Origin: an uncultured Hyphomicrobiales bacterium
Lineage (GTDB): Bacteria; Pseudomonadota; Alphaproteobacteria; Rhizobiales; Beijerinckiaceae
Direction of reading: 5' to 3'
Assembly (NCBI GenBank): GCA_903851305.1
Contig: CAINNX010000034.1
Location: 1 to 52,334 of the forward strand
Length of the DNA stretch: 52,334 bases
Notes under the pieces: model-generated
What the model was told of the DNA's origin: nothing
The model's database searches: none
Seen by the model: only the letters and a program-made list of their open reading frames with translations
Position numbers and translations under genes: made by a program
Shown here: positions 5,948-52,334 of the stretch, piece after piece
How positions within the stretch are numbered: the first letter of the stretch is position 1
Layout of the letters: the number at the start of each line of letters is the position of its first letter

Positions 5948-6235
5948 GTGATCAAATCTGAACTCGCCCAACGCATCGCTGAACGCAATCCCCATCTCTA
6001 CCTGCGAGATGTCGAGAATATCGTGAATGCCATTCTCGATGAAATTACCCACGCCTTGTCGCGCGGTGATCGCGTTGAACTACGTGGCTTTGGCGCTTTT
6101 TCCGTCAAGCGCCGTGATGCCCGCCTGGGCCGCAACCCGCGCACCGGTGCCCATGTTGAGGTTGACGAGAAGGTTGTGCCATTCTTCAAGACAGGCAAGG
6201 AAATGCGCGAGCGTCTGAACGACGTGCAGGGCTAA
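5948..6235 (+). CDS. ihfB: Integration host factor subunit beta
   Basis: A 95-residue DNA-bending protein. As a heterodimer with IHF-alpha it would make sharp turns in DNA at specific sites for transcription, recombination and replication. The dimer core is in the first half, the GFGAFSV strand follows, and the DNA-clasping arm carries GRNPRTG with the conserved intercalating proline. Translation starts at GTG, since [11 protein letters not shown] aligns with the family N-terminus and no ATG is available upstream. The position after sppA and before a LapA-like gene is normal for Rhizobiales. Confidence 0.95.
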
Positions 6236-11738: not shown

Positions 11739-13427
11739 ATGAACACAATCGGTCGGCCAGCGCATCCCGGACGTGGGGGACACGCCCGCAGCACGCAAAA
11801 AGGGCGCGTCGCGGACGAAGCCGCTTTGCAAGAGATTGCCGGCTTGGTTGGCGACGGCGTTTGGCAGCGTGATCTGCTGATCGAATATCTGCATATGATC
11901 CAGGACCATTTTGGCTGCATTTCAGCACGCCATCTGGCCGCGCTCGCAGAACACCTCCGCATCGGCTTAGCGGAAGCCTATGAGACCGCGACTTTCTACG
12001 CGCATTTTGATGTGGTGAAGGAAGACAGTGCGCCTGTTGCACCCCTCACGATCCGAATCTGCGATAGCATCGGTTGTTGCATGGCGGGTGCTGAGGCGCT
12101 GATTGCTGATTTGCAAAAGACTACACCAAAAAATATCCGTATCCAGAGTGTTCCCTGCATCGGCCGATGCGCTGAGGCGCCTGCAGCTGTGGTTGGGACA
12201 AAAGTCGTGATGGGCGCCTCGGTCCAAAAACTGGATGCGTGCATAGACAACGGCGACCATGAGGCAGACGAGGATTGCTGCATGGATTATGCCGCTTATT
12301 GCGCGGATGGCGGCTACAAACTTTATGAAGCGATCCGCAGCGGAAAATTGTCAGCAGACAATGCTTTGGATGTCGTCGAGGCCTCGGGACTTCGCGGTAT
12401 GGGGGGCGCCGGCTTTCCAACAGCACGCAAATGGCGTGCTGTGCAATCAAGAGATGGCATCAAATATCTCGTCATCAATGCAGATGAAGGCGAACCCGGG
12501 ACATTTAAGGATCGGTATATTCTTGAGCGTGATCCGCATCGTGTTCTCGAAGGCGCTTTAATTGCGGCCAATATCATTGGCGCACGCGAGATTTATTTTT
12601 ACCTGCGTGATGAATATGCAGGTCTGCGCGCAACACTCACGCGTGAAATTGCCAAACTACCTGCTGGTTGGCCGCATGTTCAGTTGCGGCGCGGCGCGGG
12701 CTCTTATGTGTGCGGTGAAGAATCAGCGCTCATCGAATCACTGGAAGGCAAGCGCGGCTATCCACGCCAGCGCCCCCCTCTGCCTGTTGAATCCGGGCTC
12801 TTTGGACGCCCCACCGCAACCAACAATGTCGAGACACTCTTCTTCCTGCGCGACATTCTGGAACATGGCACAGATTGGTGGCGCGCGCAGGGCCGCAATG
12901 GTGGCATTGGCCTGCGGCATTATTCCGTCTCGGGGCGCGTGAAAAATCCGGGCGTCAAACTGGCGCCTGCCGGACTGACCTTGTCAGACCTGTTGTACGA
13001 TTATTGCGGAGGCATGGCGGAGGGGCATGACTTGCTTGCCTATTTGCCCGGCGGAGCCTCGGGCGGGATAATGCCTGCTCAGTTGAGCAATGTTCCACTC
13101 GATTTCGGCGCACTTGAACCACATGGCTGTTTCATTGGCTCAGCTGCTATCATTGTCTTGTCGCAGCACGATGATCTCAAAAGTGCCGCACGCAATCTGA
13201 TGGCCTTCTTTGCTAATGAATCGTGCGGTCAATGCACGCCCTGTCGGCTTGGCACAGCCAAATCGCTCAAACTGATGCAGGCCCAACATTGGGATGTGCT
13301 TTTACTGCAGGATCTCGCACAGGTCATGCGCGATTCATCTATCTGCGGCCTGGGACAAGCTGCACCCAATCCTGTGCAATCTTTGTTGCGATATTTCCCT
13401 CACCTGTTTGAAGGAGATCAGGCATGA
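11739..13427 (+). CDS. fdh1B: NAD-dependent formate dehydrogenase, fused beta subunit (NuoE-NuoF type)
   Basis: A 562-residue diaphorase subunit that passes electrons from the formate-oxidising subunit to NAD+. Residues 25-165 are NuoE-like, with a thioredoxin-fold [2Fe-2S] site (Cys108, Cys113 or 114, Cys140, Cys144). Residues 185-560 are NuoF-like: FMN loop GLRGMGGAGFPTA, NADH region GAGSYVCGEESAL, and a [4Fe-4S] site at Cys496, Cys499, Cys502 and Cys536. The same fusion is known for Fdh1 of Methylobacterium extorquens, whose beta subunit has nearly the same length. No strong Shine-Dalgarno sequence precedes the ATG, so the start is less certain. It begins 16 bases after folC and overlaps the alpha-subunit gene by four bases. 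Confidence 0.9.
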   Translation: MNTIGRPAHPGRGGHARSTQKGRVADEAALQEIAGLVGDGVWQRDLLIEYLHMIQDHFGCISARHLAALAEHLRIGLAEAYETATFYAHFDVVKEDSAPVAPLTIRICDSIGCCMAGAEALIADLQKTTPKNIRIQSVPCIGRCAEAPAAVVGTKVVMGASVQKLDACIDNGDHEADEDCCMDYAAYCADGGYKLYEAIRSGKLSADNALDVVEASGLRGMGGAGFPTARKWRAVQSRDGIKYLVINADEGEPGTFKDRYILERDPHRVLEGALIAANIIGAREIYFYLRDEYAGLRATLTREIAKLPAGWPHVQLRRGAGSYVCGEESALIESLEGKRGYPRQRPPLPVESGLFGRPTATNNVETLFFLRDILEHGTDWWRAQGRNGGIGLRHYSVSGRVKNPGVKLAPAGLTLSDLLYDYCGGMAEGHDLLAYLPGGASGGIMPAQLSNVPLDFGALEPHGCFIGSAAIIVLSQHDDLKSAARNLMAFFANESCGQCTPCRLGTAKSLKLMQAQHWDVLLLQDLAQVMRDSSICGLGQAAPNPVQSLLRYFPHLFEGDQA

Positions 13428-16180
13428 GTGAAACCATTCGCTTTTTACTCAATGGCCAAGACGTCGAGGCTCAGGCCGATGAGACCATCTGGCAAGTGGC
13501 TAAACGTCTCGGAACTGCGATACCGCATTTGTGTCATCGCGATGCACATGGCTATCGACCAGACGGCAATTGCCGTGCCTGCATGGTTGAGATCAAAGGC
13601 GAGCGTGTGCTCGCACCCTCGTGCCGCCGCCATCCTACGCCCAATATGGATGTCACAACCACTAGTGCACGCGCTGAAAAGTCCCGTACGTTAGTGATGG
13701 AATTGCTACTGGCCGACCAACCCGCACGGGCAAGCTCGCATGATCCTGATTCAGATTTCTGGCATCAGGCTGACCTGATTGGCATCACAAATAGCCGCTT
13801 TCCCAAAACCACAGTGACACCAGATGTGGATGCAAGCCATCCAGCCATGCGCGTCAATCTGGATGCTTGTATTCAATGCGGCCTATGCGTTCGCGCCTGC
13901 CGCGATGTGCAGGTCAATGATGTGATCGGCATGGCCTATCGCCATGACCATGCAAAAATCGTTTTTGATTTTGATGATCCAATGGGTGAGTCCACCTGTG
14001 TGGCTTGTGGCGAATGTGTGCAGGCGTGCCCGACAGGGGCTCTTATGCCAGCCAGCCTTCTGGATGACACTCAGCAGCGCACTGTCTTTCCTGATCGCAA
14101 AGCTGATTCACTATGCCCCTATTGCGGTGTTGGGTGTCAGGTCACCTATGAGGTGAAAGACAATGTCATTATTAATGCGCAAGGTCGTGATGGCCCCGCC
14201 AACCACAACCGGCTGTGTGTGAAGGGTCGCTTTGGTTTCGATTATATTAACCACCCGCATCGCCTCACCACGCCGCTGGTGCGCTTGCCCGGCAAGGCAA
14301 AGCATGCCCGTGATGTGGTTGATCCCGCCAATCCCTTCACGCATTTTCGAGAAGCAAGTTGGGCAGAAGCGCTCGATATTGCCGCACATGGCCTGAAAAA
14401 GATTCGCGAGAAGCAGGGGCCCCGTGCCTTGGCGGGCTTTGGCTCAGCCAAAGGCTCGAACGAAGAGGCTTATCTTTTCCAGAAGCTGGTGCGCACAGGC
14501 TTTGGCAGTAATAATGTCGATCATTGCACGCGCCTCTGTCACGCATCATCCGTTGCAGCCCTGATGGAAGGGCTCTCATCGGGCGCTGTTTCTGCTCCGT
14601 TTGAGGCTGCACGTAATGCGGACTTCATTCTGGTGATTGGTGCCAATCCAGCCGTCAATCATCCGGTAGCTGCGACCTTTATCAAAAATGCGGCGCGCAA
14701 AGGCGCCAAGCTTGTTATCATTGATCCACGCCATCAATCCCTATCACGACATGCATGGAAACATCTGGCGTTCCGACCTGGCAGCGATGTGGCTCTGCTC
14801 AATGCCATGTTGAACGTGATCATCAGCGAAAATCTGGTTAATCACACATTTATCGAAGCCCATACTTCGGACTTTGAAGCACTGGTTATGCATGTCACGG
14901 ATTTCACGCCCGAACGCATGGCGCCACTTTGCGGAATTGACGCACAGACCTTGCGCGTCGTGGCGCGTGCTTATGCCACCTCACGCGCCTCTCTTATCTT
15001 CTGGGGTATGGGCATCAGCCAGCATGTGCATGGCACAGATAATGCCCGCTGCCTGATTGCGCTGGCCTTGATTACGGGACAAATAGGCCGACCCGGCACT
15101 GGTCTGCATCCATTACGTGGCCAAAACAATGTGCAAGGCGCATCAGACGCTGGTCTCGTCCCTATGCTCTATCCTGATTATCGCAGTGTCGAATCTTCTG
15201 ATGTCCGTGATATTTTTGAAATCTTTTGGGATAAGCCACTTGATCCGCAACGCGGCCTGACTGTTGTTGAAATCATGAAAGCCGCCATCAATGGTGACAT
15301 TCGCGGCATGTATATCGAGGGCGAAAATCCGGCTATGTCGGATCCAGATCTCAACCACGCACGCGAAGCGCTCGCGTCTCTTGATCACCTTGTTGTGCAG
15401 GATTTATTCCTGACCGAGACAGCCTTCCATGCCGATGTGATTTTGCCAGCATCGGCTTTTGCTGAAAAAGACGGAACTTTCACCAATACGGATCGGCGCG
15501 TGCAAATGGCGCGCGCCATCGTGCCGCCACCCGGAGACGCCAAGCAGGATTGGTGGATCATTCAGGAAATGGCGCGCCGCATGGGACTTGATTGGTCCTA
15601 TCAATCGCCTGCTGATGTGTTTTGCGAAATGGTCGCCATCATGCCATCGCTTCAGCACATCAGCTGGGAACGGTTGCAGCGCGAGGGCGCCGTAACTTAC
15701 CCTGCGCACGCTGATGACAAGCCAGGTGAAGCGATCATTTTCGCCGATGGATTCCCAACACCATCAGGTCGCGCACGCATCGTGCCAGCGCGCATTGCAC
15801 CGCCCGACGAAGTGCCTGACGCAGAATATCCGATGATCCTCTCGACAGGGCGCGTGCTGGAACATTGGCACACAGGCTCCATGACGCGACGCGCCTGCGT
15901 GCTCGACCAACTTGAACCGGAAGCCATGGCGCTGGTGAACCCTCGTGAGGTCACACGACTGAAGCTCGCTATTGATGACTACGCCCAGATCGAAACGCGG
16001 CGCGGGGCTATCCGGATCAAACTGCGCGAAGATCGTAATGTGCCAGTCGGGATGATCTTCATGCCCTTCTGTTATGCAGAGGCCGCAGCCAATCTCCTGA
16101 CCAATGCGGCCCTTGATCCCACAGCAAAGATACCGGAATTCAAATTCTGCGCGGCGCGGTTAACCTCTGACGCCCCCTAG
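13424..16180 (+). CDS. fdh1A: Formate dehydrogenase alpha subunit (Mo/W-bis-MGD, cysteine type)
   Basis: A 918-residue catalytic subunit that oxidises formate to CO2. In order: a plant-type [2Fe-2S] domain (Cys37, 50, 53, 67), a double-cluster ferredoxin domain (Cys149-159 and Cys192-202), the [4Fe-4S] motif of the molybdopterin domain (Cys231, 234, 238, 265), the bis-MGD body, and a C-terminal dinucleotide-binding domain. The metal ligand is Cys372, followed by His373, in DHCTRLCHASS; selenocysteine is not used. The His/Cys cluster motif that NuoG proteins carry after the [2Fe-2S] domain is not seen; SSHDPDSDFW stands there. The metal (Mo or W) cannot be told from sequence. No fdhD or other maturation gene is in the window. 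Confidence 0.93.
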   Translation: MSETIRFLLNGQDVEAQADETIWQVAKRLGTAIPHLCHRDAHGYRPDGNCRACMVEIKGERVLAPSCRRHPTPNMDVTTTSARAEKSRTLVMELLLADQPARASSHDPDSDFWHQADLIGITNSRFPKTTVTPDVDASHPAMRVNLDACIQCGLCVRACRDVQVNDVIGMAYRHDHAKIVFDFDDPMGESTCVACGECVQACPTGALMPASLLDDTQQRTVFPDRKADSLCPYCGVGCQVTYEVKDNVIINAQGRDGPANHNRLCVKGRFGFDYINHPHRLTTPLVRLPGKAKHARDVVDPANPFTHFREASWAEALDIAAHGLKKIREKQGPRALAGFGSAKGSNEEAYLFQKLVRTGFGSNNVDHCTRLCHASSVAALMEGLSSGAVSAPFEAARNADFILVIGANPAVNHPVAATFIKNAARKGAKLVIIDPRHQSLSRHAWKHLAFRPGSDVALLNAMLNVIISENLVNHTFIEAHTSDFEALVMHVTDFTPERMAPLCGIDAQTLRVVARAYATSRASLIFWGMGISQHVHGTDNARCLIALALITGQIGRPGTGLHPLRGQNNVQGASDAGLVPMLYPDYRSVESSDVRDIFEIFWDKPLDPQRGLTVVEIMKAAINGDIRGMYIEGENPAMSDPDLNHAREALASLDHLVVQDLFLTETAFHADVILPASAFAEKDGTFTNTDRRVQMARAIVPPPGDAKQDWWIIQEMARRMGLDWSYQSPADVFCEMVAIMPSLQHISWERLQREGAVTYPAHADDKPGEAIIFADGFPTPSGRARIVPARIAPPDEVPDAEYPMILSTGRVLEHWHTGSMTRRACVLDQLEPEAMALVNPREVTRLKLAIDDYAQIETRRGAIRIKLREDRNVPVGMIFMPFCYAEAAANLLTNAALDPTAKIPEFKFCAARLTSDAP

Positions 16181-16355
16181 TAAAGCTGAAATACCGTTCT
16201 AAACTTGCTTAATAAAGCACTGTTTAACCCTAATTTAGCCATTACTAGCCAAGTTTTTTGAAAAATAGTCACGAAACAACTCAACAACTATATTGTTTTG
16301 ATCTATCTTAAGCTCAGCTTTATTGAACAAATCCCACTCGGGGCAGGAGATAGGG
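16181..16355 (+). promoter_or_regulatory. AT-rich intergenic control region before the response regulator gene
   Basis: This stretch is clearly richer in A and T than the surrounding DNA. It holds two small inverted repeats, AACAA-N5-TTGTT (16283-16297) and AAGCTCAGCTT (16310-16320). It is the only gap between fdh1A and the response regulator gene, so it probably carries that gene's promoter and perhaps operator sites. No intrinsic terminator for the fdh genes is evident. Confidence 0.4.
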
Positions 16356-17123
16356 GTGAAGGACATCGAAATCCTTCTCGTCGAGGCCGCGCATGGCCTG
16401 CGACACGAAATCTCCGCGTCTCTCGGCAAAGCCGGAGCCCGGGTGGAGGCGCTCGCCAGTATTTTTGAAGCCCGTCAGTCGCTACTACGCCTAAGACCGC
16501 GGTTTCTCATCCTTGATGTTGACGGACAAAGTGATGATGTCTTCAGCTTCCTAAGCGAGCTCGACAGCTTGAATGTCCAAACAATCGTCTTGGCCGATGA
16601 CACACAAATCAACCAACGCATCGAGTATTTTGAGCGCCGCGTGATGGATGTTATCCCTAAGCCGCTACATTTGCATGAAGTAAACCTGCGACTGCGTCGC
16701 TTCTTGCGCCCACATCCCGTCACAAAGCCTGATCTGCAAATTGAACTCGCGTGCGGTCGCGCGACACTCGATATTGCAACTCGCTCCTTACGCCAATCAC
16801 GTAAGAAATCCGTGGCTCTGACAGCAAGCGAATTCCGTTTGCTTTACCTGCTCCTGCAGAAAGATGGCTCTGTCATTGATCGCGCGATCATCATGCGTGA
16901 TGTGCTGGGACAAAGCCAAGACAGCACGAGCCGCTCCATTAACGTCATCATTAGCAAACTGCGCCGCAAACTCGATGATATCGACTCGGGTTGCTTTATT
17001 CGCAGTGTACGATCTGAAGGCTACATACTTGTTGACGAACAAAGATACGCCCCTCGTACAGAGGCTTCTGATGCATTTCCGAATAACAAGATGTTCGGCA
17101 GTCTGAACGGAACTAGCGAATGA
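16356..17123 (+). CDS. Atypical OmpR/PhoB-family response regulator
   Basis: A 255-residue DNA-binding protein. Residues 1-118 form a receiver-like domain and residues 125-240 a winged helix (LTASEFRLLYLLL, then SRSINVIISKLRRKL and RSVRSEGYIL). The phospho-acceptor Asp54 (LILDVDG) and the conserved Lys102 are kept. The acidic pair is Glu10-Ala11 instead of Asp-Asp, and the switch Thr/Ser is Ala80, so normal phosphorylation is doubtful. The start is GTG with AGGAGA six bases upstream; a TTG further upstream has no such site. No histidine kinase is nearby. The stop overlaps the next gene, an HU/IHF-like protein, by four bases, so the two are probably made together. The regulated genes are unknown. 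Confidence 0.85.
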   Translation: MKDIEILLVEAAHGLRHEISASLGKAGARVEALASIFEARQSLLRLRPRFLILDVDGQSDDVFSFLSELDSLNVQTIVLADDTQINQRIEYFERRVMDVIPKPLHLHEVNLRLRRFLRPHPVTKPDLQIELACGRATLDIATRSLRQSRKKSVALTASEFRLLYLLLQKDGSVIDRAIIMRDVLGQSQDSTSRSINVIISKLRRKLDDIDSGCFIRSVRSEGYILVDEQRYAPRTEASDAFPNNKMFGSLNGTSE

Positions 17124-17461
17124 TGACGTCCAAAGATCAGGTCAATATCACGCGCGCACATCTGGCGGATGCCATTTGTCGAGCTACTGGCTTGTCACGT
17201 ACTGACGCAAGCGACTTTGTCGAACTCTTTCTCGATCTTATTAGCGAGACATTGCTACGCGAAGAGAGCGTAATGTTTTCAGGCTTTGGAAAGTTTCAAG
17301 TCGTGAAGCGCGCGGCGCGCAAAGGCCGCAATGTTAAGCTTGGTGTCGATGTGATGATTGAGCCGCGATTGGCGATTATTTTCAAACCGGCGCCAGGTTT
17401 GGTGTCTCGTCTGAATGAGGCGTCTGATCGGGCCGAAAAACGCACCATTGCCGCAGCCTAA
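17120..17461 (+). CDS. HU/IHF-family DNA-binding protein lacking the arm proline
   Basis: A 113-residue member of the bacterial histone-like family. The helical dimerisation part (THLADAIC-like start, residues 11-50) and the MFSGFGKFQVVKR strand are clear. The DNA-contacting arm reads GRNVKLG around residue 72: the near-invariant proline (GRNP) that wedges between base pairs in HU and IHF is Val. The arm is followed by a C-terminal extension of about 20 residues. The ihfB gene in the same window keeps GRNPRTG. Translation is coupled to the response regulator gene through ATGA. It probably binds DNA with less bending, perhaps as a partner of that regulator; this is inference. Confidence 0.82.
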   Translation: MMTSKDQVNITRAHLADAICRATGLSRTDASDFVELFLDLISETLLREESVMFSGFGKFQVVKRAARKGRNVKLGVDVMIEPRLAIIFKPAPGLVSRLNEASDRAEKRTIAAA

Positions 17462-17626: not shown

Positions 17627-17917
17627 ATGACTGCTGCTTGGAAAACAAAATTTGGTGGGCGCCGTGTGCGTCACGATCCTCCTACAATTGAGGAGGCGCT
17701 CGAGGCTGCCGAATGTTTTGCAGAAGGCCTCGACAACCAGATTGAAGTCGCAGCCCAGCTGATGGGGGTCACCGAAGACGAAGTGCGTGCTGTTGCTCTG
17801 CGCGCGCAGCGTCGGGCGACCACCATACAGCGCGTGGCACCAGCCACACCATCAGCCTCAGGCCGAGCCGTGATTGTCGAGCGGCGGACCACCCGACGGC
17901 GGATCGCTTCGCCCTAA
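17627..17917 (+). CDS. Small conserved hypothetical protein
   Basis: A 96-residue basic protein. The N-terminus WKTKFGGRRVRHDPPT followed by IEEALEAAECFAEG resembles a small protein family I recall from Rhizobiales genomes, with no known function. The middle (residues 22-60) is probably helical (IEVAAQLMGVTEDEVRAVAL). The C-terminus is rich in Arg, Thr and Ala and looks disordered. A GTGAGG sequence lies just before the ATG. It stands alone between the HU-like gene and the cold-shock gene. No signal peptide or membrane segment is seen. Confidence 0.72.
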   Translation: MTAAWKTKFGGRRVRHDPPTIEEALEAAECFAEGLDNQIEVAAQLMGVTEDEVRAVALRAQRRATTIQRVAPATPSASGRAVIVERRTTRRRIASP

Positions 17918-51256: not shown

Positions 51257-52334
51257 ATGTCGGACCTGAACGCTCTTGAAACCGAAACGCTCGCAGCCAT
51301 TGCCGCCGCAGCCGATGAAGCCGCGCTTGAAAATGTGCGCCTCGCCGCACTTGGCAAGAAAGGCTCGATCTCCGCCTTGCTGGCTACGCTTGGCAAAATG
51401 TCGCCCGAAGAGCGCAAGACGGAAGGCGCCAAAATCAATGTGCTGAAGGACACAGTGTCCGATGCGCTCACGGCACGACGCACTATTCTGAAAGAAGCAG
51501 CCCTTGAAGCACGTCTCGCCTCAGAAACTGTGGATGTGACGCTGCCGGTGCGCGAAGCACCCGTCGAAACAGGGCGTATCCATCCCATCTCACAAGTCAT
51601 GGATGAGCTGACAGCCATTTTTGCCGACATGGGCTTTTCCATTGCTGAAGGTCCCGATGTCGAAGAAGACGACATCAACTTCACCAAGCTGAATTTTCCT
51701 GAGGGCCATCCGGCGCGTGAAATGCACGACACGTTCTTCTTCAATCCGAAAGTAGACGGCACGCGCAAATTGCTGCGCACACATACGAGCCCTGTGCAGG
51801 TGCGCACCATGCTCAATGGCAAGCCGCCGATCCGCGTGATCTGCCCGGGCCGCACCTATCGTTGCGATTCCGACCAGACGCATACGCCGATGTTTCATCA
51901 GGTCGAAGGTCTCGTCATCGACAAGTCCGCCAACCTTGGCCATCTGAAATGGATTCTCGAAGAATTCTGTAAAGCCTTCTTCGAAGTGCCGAATGTAAAA
52001 ATGCGTTTCCGGCCATCTTTCTTCCCCTTCACGGAACCATCGATGGAAGTCGATATCCAGTGCAACCGTTCGGGCGGCGAAATCCGCTTTGGCGAAGGCG
52101 AAGACTGGCTGGAAATTTTGGGCTGCGGCATGGTGCACCCCAATGTTCTGCGCAATTGCGGCATCGACCCTAACGAATATCAAGGCTTTGCCTGGGGCAT
52201 GGGTATCGATCGCATCGCCATGCTGAAATACGGCATGCCAGATTTGCGTCCCTTCTTTGAAGGCGATCTGCGCTGGTTATCGCACTACGGTTTCCGTCCT
52301 CTCGACCTGCCAAGTCTGGCAGGCGGTCTCAGCG
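51257..52334 (+). CDS. pheS: Phenylalanine-tRNA ligase alpha subunit (cut by window end)
   Basis: 359 codons of the alpha subunit of the class II enzyme that charges tRNA-Phe. The N-terminal coiled coil (residues 1-90) is followed by motif 1 ([19 protein letters not shown]), motif 2 ([12 protein letters not shown], then [22 protein letters not shown]) and motif 3 ([14 protein letters not shown]). The protein ends [10 protein letters not shown] at the window edge; the family usually ends one or two residues later, so almost the whole gene is present but its stop is not. pheT is expected next. The 85-base space before it holds no Phe-rich leader peptide. Confidence 0.96.

Follow-up and report, generated by a model that had tools for sequence, protein, structure and literature searches.

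The described systems that come nearest to the regulator considered here are the atypical OmpR/PhoB pseudo-receivers ChxR, HP1043/HsrA, CosR and NblR (PMC12632262, PMC3960148), which share its domain order and fold, are orphans, lack at least one of the five catalytic residues and keep the alpha4-beta5-alpha5 face intact. A 2025 review (PMC12632262) describes how such pseudo-receivers are switched on and off as a mystery. RitR of Streptococcus (PMC5965902) is likewise an orphan derived from a two-component regulator, is encoded beside a metabolic dehydrogenase and carries a conserved cysteine between its domains, having lost both the Asp and the acidic pair of the dimer face. Amongst architectural proteins, HU PG0121 of Porphyromonas gingivalis is co-transcribed with one specific operon and is required for its normal expression (PMC3969353), and the prolines of IHF intercalate and initiate DNA wrapping (PMC8421141). 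Each half of the locus described below has precedents, in pseudo-receiver OmpR proteins (ChxR, HP1043; PMC3960148) and in an HU protein whose gene shares a transcript with the operon that it serves (PMC3969353), but PG0121 comes without a response regulator and belongs to a different phylum and operon. In the limited set of literature searched, neither a unit of regulator, HU and formate dehydrogenase nor a proline-less IHF clade has been described.

The window, i.e. the whole stretch of DNA analysed, is a contig of 52,334 nucleotides from an uncultured member of the Hyphomicrobiales, and the features that concern us are the following.

11739 to 13427, forward strand: fused FdsG/NuoE-FdsB/NuoF subunit of an NAD-dependent formate dehydrogenase, lying 16 bp downstream of folC
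13424 to 16180, forward strand: formate dehydrogenase alpha subunit FdhA (TIGR01591, 730 bits, above the cut-off)
16181 to 16355, forward strand: FdhA-regulator intergenic region of 175 bp, probably holding the pair's own promoter
16279 to 16300, forward strand: 22-bp element ACTCAACAACTATATTGTTTTG, an AACAA-N5-TTGTT inverted repeat in the window and a candidate operator or promoter element
16356 to 17123, forward strand: OmpR/PhoB-type response regulator of 255 aa (GTG start at 16356, TGA stop at 17121-17123)
17120 to 17461, forward strand: IHF-alpha-derived DNA-binding protein of 113 aa, here called the partner (ATG at 17120, stop at 17459-17461), overlapping the regulator by ATGA
17627 to 17917, forward strand: conserved 96-aa protein with no function assigned, present after the module wherever a relative's sequence extends far enough

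The initial annotation had placed two DNA-binding genes overlapping by ATGA right after the formate dehydrogenase, and the coordinates bear this out; the junction between regulator and partner reads GAATGATGACG, and AGGAG precedes the GTG of the regulator. The dehydrogenase itself (11739-16180) lies in a trp-accD-folC run with its NuoE- and NuoF-like parts fused in a single 562-aa subunit, and no fdsC- or fdsD-like genes were seen in the window between it and gyrB. The 96-aa protein is 79-97% identical across the clade and has no Pfam match.

The tie of the regulator to the formate dehydrogenase, which the initial annotation had missed along with the receiver and HPt genes of one relative and the cyclic-nucleotide-binding protein encoded there (see below), is strict. 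A survey of 51 genomes of the genus, which make up one clade and include many incomplete MAGs, recovered this fused-subunit dehydrogenase in 12, and in 11 of these a regulator is encoded downstream of FdhA, ten times at full length (L019, L032-L038, L287) and once cut by a contig end (G347, L284 7223-7468), whilst in the twelfth genome (G008) the contig stops 400 bp past FdhA. None of the 39 genomes of the genus that lack the dehydrogenase has an orthologue of the regulator, the search scores dropping from 343 bits to 217, a value that comes from other OmpR paralogues. Fisher's exact test of this co-occurrence gives p = 2.5e-10, a figure that overstates independence as the genomes are related. 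The regulator is the next gene past FdhA in all regulator genomes except G026, and since folC lies 16 bp before the dehydrogenase in the window and at four other loci (G019, G027, G032, G331), the module occupies one ancestral place. The adjacency of regulator and partner also proved usual, the two lying together in eight of the ten complete loci with start and stop overlapping or a few bases apart, and the loci that keep this arrangement have regulators only 34-82% identical to that of the window. In the other two (G002, G025), which lack the partner, the gene next to the regulator encodes a cyclic-nucleotide-binding protein (PF00027, 61-62 bits) instead. Relatives of this last protein occur in 39 of the 51 genomes, G002, G025 and G026 each having one after the regulator at the dehydrogenase, and a normal OmpR-type regulator followed immediately by a cyclic-nucleotide-binding protein is found at L302 7172-8312 (G000:C65), an order repeated in G029 (L303).

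The partner had been annotated as HU-like, and its place in the HU/IHF superfamily is clear (PF00216, Bac_DNA_binding, 81.9 bits against a cut-off of 22.4), but it derives from IHF-alpha rather than HU: it scores 86.5 bits against the IhfA equivalog NF001401, compared with 36.3 for HU-alpha and 32.1 for the other of the two HU profiles (HupA/HupB). All these values lie under the curated cut-offs (111 for NF001401, 162 and 157 for the HU profiles), and a plain IHF-alpha or HU was therefore rejected as its identity. Profile, tree and fold agree that IHF-alpha is its closest family, with a shared GRN-x-G arm frame; an AlphaFold2 model (pLDDT 73.5) has the IHF/HU fold and matches IHF-alpha 1ihf_A with E 4.2e-08. 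The C-terminal extension pointed out in the initial annotation is present, but amounts to merely some 10-14 residues beyond IHF-alpha and is not conserved. The replacement of the arm proline by Val72 stands: Val72 sits within the motif RKGRNVKLG, where E. coli IHF-alpha and three normal IHF proteins of the same genome have the proline of GRNP, and the model places it in the turn after strand 67-71, at the arm tip. Normal IHF-alpha and IHF-beta are encoded separately in the genome, the housekeeping IHF-beta at 5948-6235, and directly after groEL lies another IHF-alpha-like gene, which has the usual arm proline (L004 1372-1827, G000:C52).

This valine is not private to the strain. All 14 members of the clade have it, namely the eight paired partners and six unpaired paralogues, which fall together with full support (100/100) and apart from the normal IHF-alpha sequences; on this tree the paired copies may be monophyletic or may form the stem from which paired and unpaired copies both arise. 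Of the partner relatives fetched, which were chosen by similarity and hence form no random census, the remaining 73 of the 80 genome loci have proline, as does every other family locus. Across 84,980 species genomes, every named match to the partner came from a MAG of Beijerinckiaceae or other Hyphomicrobiales. The unpaired paralogues (L040 8363-8719 in G000:C109, L039, L041, L029, L031, L154) occur in six genomes, none beside the regulator, and several adjoin an ABC transporter gene. HU/IHF relatives without the usual proline are also known from viruses. TF1 of phage SPO1 has Phe in its place, and eight of 84 phage-contig relatives (L187, L191, L193, L197, L199, L208, L209, L215), which are HU-like proteins, have Ile (RAARKGRNIQTGEE); both differ from the partner in being viral, of HU type and in the replacing residue. 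A phage origin of the partner was rejected, the closest viral relatives being 31-43% identical and carrying Pro or Ile, as was a plasmid origin, since no plasmid relative reaches 60% identity and the two inspected carry Pro. The partner evolves with a dN/dS of 0.06-0.11, indicating purifying selection, and a protein of this kind is probably non-kinking, bending DNA less than IHF or in a different manner.

It is conceivable that the partner is simply an independent accessory nucleoid protein, perhaps pairing with IHF-beta or acting as a homodimer, which shares a transcript with the regulator and has no special action with it. The presence of the same valine in the unpaired paralogues of six genomes is in keeping with this, and from the loci of G002 and G025, which have lost the partner and kept the regulator, it follows that the regulator can work without it. 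However, start and stop overlap or nearly so in eight genomes across the deep divergence noted above, and within the Val-type clade the paired and unpaired copies maintain separate arm motifs, RKGRNVKLG and RRARNVRAG respectively. On balance we regard such independence as unlikely.

The regulator has the domain order of the OmpR/PhoB family, an N-terminal receiver and a C-terminal winged-helix Trans_reg_C domain. The latter is recognised in the window protein without difficulty (65.1 bits, cut-off 26.2), whilst Response_reg scores 29.0 bits, slightly below its cut-off of 30.2, and 43.9-70.4 bits in the six orthologues scanned. The model of the regulator matches KdpE, PrrA and PhoP, and also HP1043 (2hqr), CosR (8uvk) and RitR (5u8k), matches that were used for fold confirmation only, as the full-length Foldseek TM-scores are low (0.4-0.5) and the models rest on eight sequences. 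Alignment verified the residues named in the initial annotation, the catalytic positions of the window protein being E10, A11, D54, A80 and K102. The other receiver positions are D81 (T+1), V99 (K-3) and L104 (K+2), and the dimer face carries R88, D98, E108 and R112 (R91, D101, E111 and R115 of PhoB), all four invariant in ten of ten orthologues. The T+1 residue is acidic in nine of the ten and K+2 is Leu, Val or Ile in all of them; small T+1 residues have been linked to phosphorylation access and aliphatic K+2 residues to active conformations (PMC12632262), and the two features seen here accordingly go with lower phosphorylation and a more active conformation.

A degenerate phosphorylation site had been proposed, and in the window this holds (A11, A80), but it is not a conserved signature. 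The catalytic quintet of two acidic residues, Asp, Thr/Ser and Lys reads E-A-D-A-K in the window, E-G-D-A-K in G012 and E-D-D-A-K in G019, so that Ala11 or Gly11 is private to the window and G012, and Ala80 to these two and G019. It is E-D-D-T-K in G027, G032 and G331 and E-D-D-S-K in G026, four orthologues that keep all five residues, and E-E-T-S-K in G014, E-E-A-S-K in G002 and D-E-A-S-K in G025, three that have lost Asp54. The fragment in G347, read by eye, has D-K-D-C. At least one catalytic residue is missing in seven of the 11 orthologues, and the degenerate site is, from the alignment, a trend of repeated decay. On a regulator tree with paralogues as the outgroup G026 is the outermost orthologue, albeit on a long branch that calls for caution, and the canonical quintet is therefore probably ancestral, having been lost at least three times and at different positions: Ala80 and then Ala/Gly11 (window, G012, G019), Asp54 to Thr or Ala (G014, G002, G025) and Lys11/Cys80 (G347).

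Loss of the metal-binding acid and of the Thr impairs both phosphotransfer and its read-out in this family. The residues suggest an activity of the regulator without Asp phosphorylation, and in contrast to the described pseudo-receivers the decay varies between close relatives and the window protein keeps Asp54 and Lys102, a retention that speaks against this reading. One must ask, then, whether phosphorylation still controls the regulator in the ordinary way, with a kinase encoded elsewhere or a small-molecule phosphodonor acting on Asp54 and with Ala11 and Ala80 just weakening the chemistry. Besides the retained Asp54 and Lys102, the canonical quintet of four orthologues fits such a view, and because three of them (G027, G032, G331) have no kinase nearby, phosphorylation by a distant one is possible. 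The genome does have kinases elsewhere, and orphan regulators are for the most part typical ones (PMC12632262). As the initial annotation had it, no histidine kinase lies nearby: there is no HisKA domain anywhere on the contig, and all 21 HisKA matches in the genome are on other contigs. One hybrid histidine kinase adjoins the closest OmpR paralogue (L280 7563-9692, G000:C12), where, in this assembly, a stop splits it into two open frames. Against an ordinary phosphorylated regulator stand the kinase-free contig, the absence from the window protein of the second acidic residue, a direct metal ligand, and of Thr/Ser, the loss of the Asp in three orthologues and the acidic T+1 in nine of ten, and we consider it unlikely.

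A different possibility is that the locus is a decaying relic in which regulator and partner are both losing function. Catalytic residues have been lost, the partner has gone from two genomes and the receiver evolves faster than the DNA-binding domain (dN/dS 0.12-0.25 and 0.07-0.15 respectively). These values are nevertheless far under 1, as is that of the partner, so that all three are kept by selection; all frames are open, the recognition helix and the upstream element are conserved and the spacing is fixed. The relic reading, very improbable overall, is already largely refuted by dN/dS and the open frames.

The most divergent locus, that of G026, has the order FdhGB, FdhA, a short membrane-like ORF, a receiver protein (PF00072, 68.2 bits), an HPt protein (PF01627, 36.1 bits, above the cut-off) whose final bases overlap the start of the regulator, the regulator with its canonical receiver, a Val-type partner, the cyclic-nucleotide-binding protein and the 96-aa protein. 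There is no complete kinase at this locus, but the receiver and HPt genes look like a phosphorelay feeding the regulator. A parsimonious history would have these genes lost in the window lineage and the receiver decaying afterwards; alternatively, they could have been gained by G026 instead of lost elsewhere.

If phosphorylation has been replaced, one candidate for the other input, by analogy with RitR, is Cys133. The regulator would then be a redox sensor, its invariant cysteine beside a redox enzyme operon taking over from the phosphate. Cys133 is the sole invariant cysteine (ten of ten orthologues), it is absent at that position from the paralogues checked, and in RitR, itself an orphan that lacks the Asp, a linker cysteine acts as the switch and the gene shares a transcript with a metabolic dehydrogenase (PMC5965902). 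The likeness extends to the inter-domain cysteine and not to an Asp-less receiver with an altered dimer face, since the window protein keeps Asp54 and its charged dimer residues, and any redox role here is by analogy only. Furthermore, Cys133 is also present in G026 with its receiver and HPt genes and canonical receiver, and so predates the decay; the model places it at a beta-strand end, the edge of the first strand of the DNA-binding domain, not in a helical linker; and a cysteine is present in 28% of such linkers (PMC5965902). A RitR-like switch is for these reasons improbable.

In ten genomes 171-175 bp separate FdhA from the regulator, despite strong sequence divergence of this stretch between the sub-clades. 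All six sequences of the window clade have the 22-bp element (ACTCAACAAYTNYANWGTTTTG) 56-77 bp upstream of the regulator, with flanks that are much less conserved. At two or fewer mismatches the genome holds a single copy (16279-16300), with five weak copies at three, and no second good copy lies near the dehydrogenase or elsewhere in the genome, which thus gives no sign of a shared operator. As a regulon signature the element was rejected, for with one such copy no regulon can be drawn; it does suggest a regulated promoter of the pair's own. Direct repeats are the usual binding sites of OmpR-type proteins, whereas this element comes nearer to an inverted repeat. A sigma-70 scan of the upstream region gave chance-level results, and there is no consensus IHF site near the promoter, the sole match in the window, at 52178, being at chance level.

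What is observed, then, is a real and conserved pair in a small alphaproteobacterial group, in which a decaying regulator and a Val-type IHF partner lie beside formate dehydrogenase. The explanation that we prefer, to which as a whole we would give a probability of about 0.48, is that a signalling cassette linked to the dehydrogenase has these two genes as its output end, with a pseudo-receiver and a coupled IHF-like protein acting locally. The genes would be the surviving part of that cassette, the phosphorelay input genes missing from the window lineage, and the regulator of this lineage would be a pseudo-receiver that pairs by way of its alpha4-beta5-alpha5 face, which is intact, and needs little or no phosphorylation to bind DNA. 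Its activity may be set by some other input or by the amount made, the promoter region being its own and carrying a conserved element that is unique. The gene that overlaps it would yield, in coupled amounts, a dedicated protein of IHF-alpha type with the usual DNA-gripping arms and Val for the intercalating Pro, and the two proteins would probably assemble into a local nucleoprotein complex on the 175-bp region and on the promoter of the formate dehydrogenase. From the comparisons above we infer the independence from phosphorylation, the reduced kinking, the joint binding of DNA and the dehydrogenase as target. A stricter version, in which a phosphorylation-free regulator and a dedicated non-kinking IHF make up an obligate nucleoprotein switch, the proline having been lost as the regulator gives sequence specificity and geometry and coupled production having replaced the phosphate signal, seems to us quite unlikely.

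The wider value of the locus lies in the fact that a single orthologous regulator is found in one place in four states: with the full quintet and receiver and HPt genes, with the quintet and no nearby kinase, without the Asp, and with neither the metal site nor the Thr left. As the dimer face is constant throughout, these form a ready comparison series for the switching of pseudo-receivers. Similarly, the arm proline is the best-known mechanistic residue of the IHF family, and a clade that has Val in its place and is under purifying selection permits a test of IHF-type function without proline intercalation.
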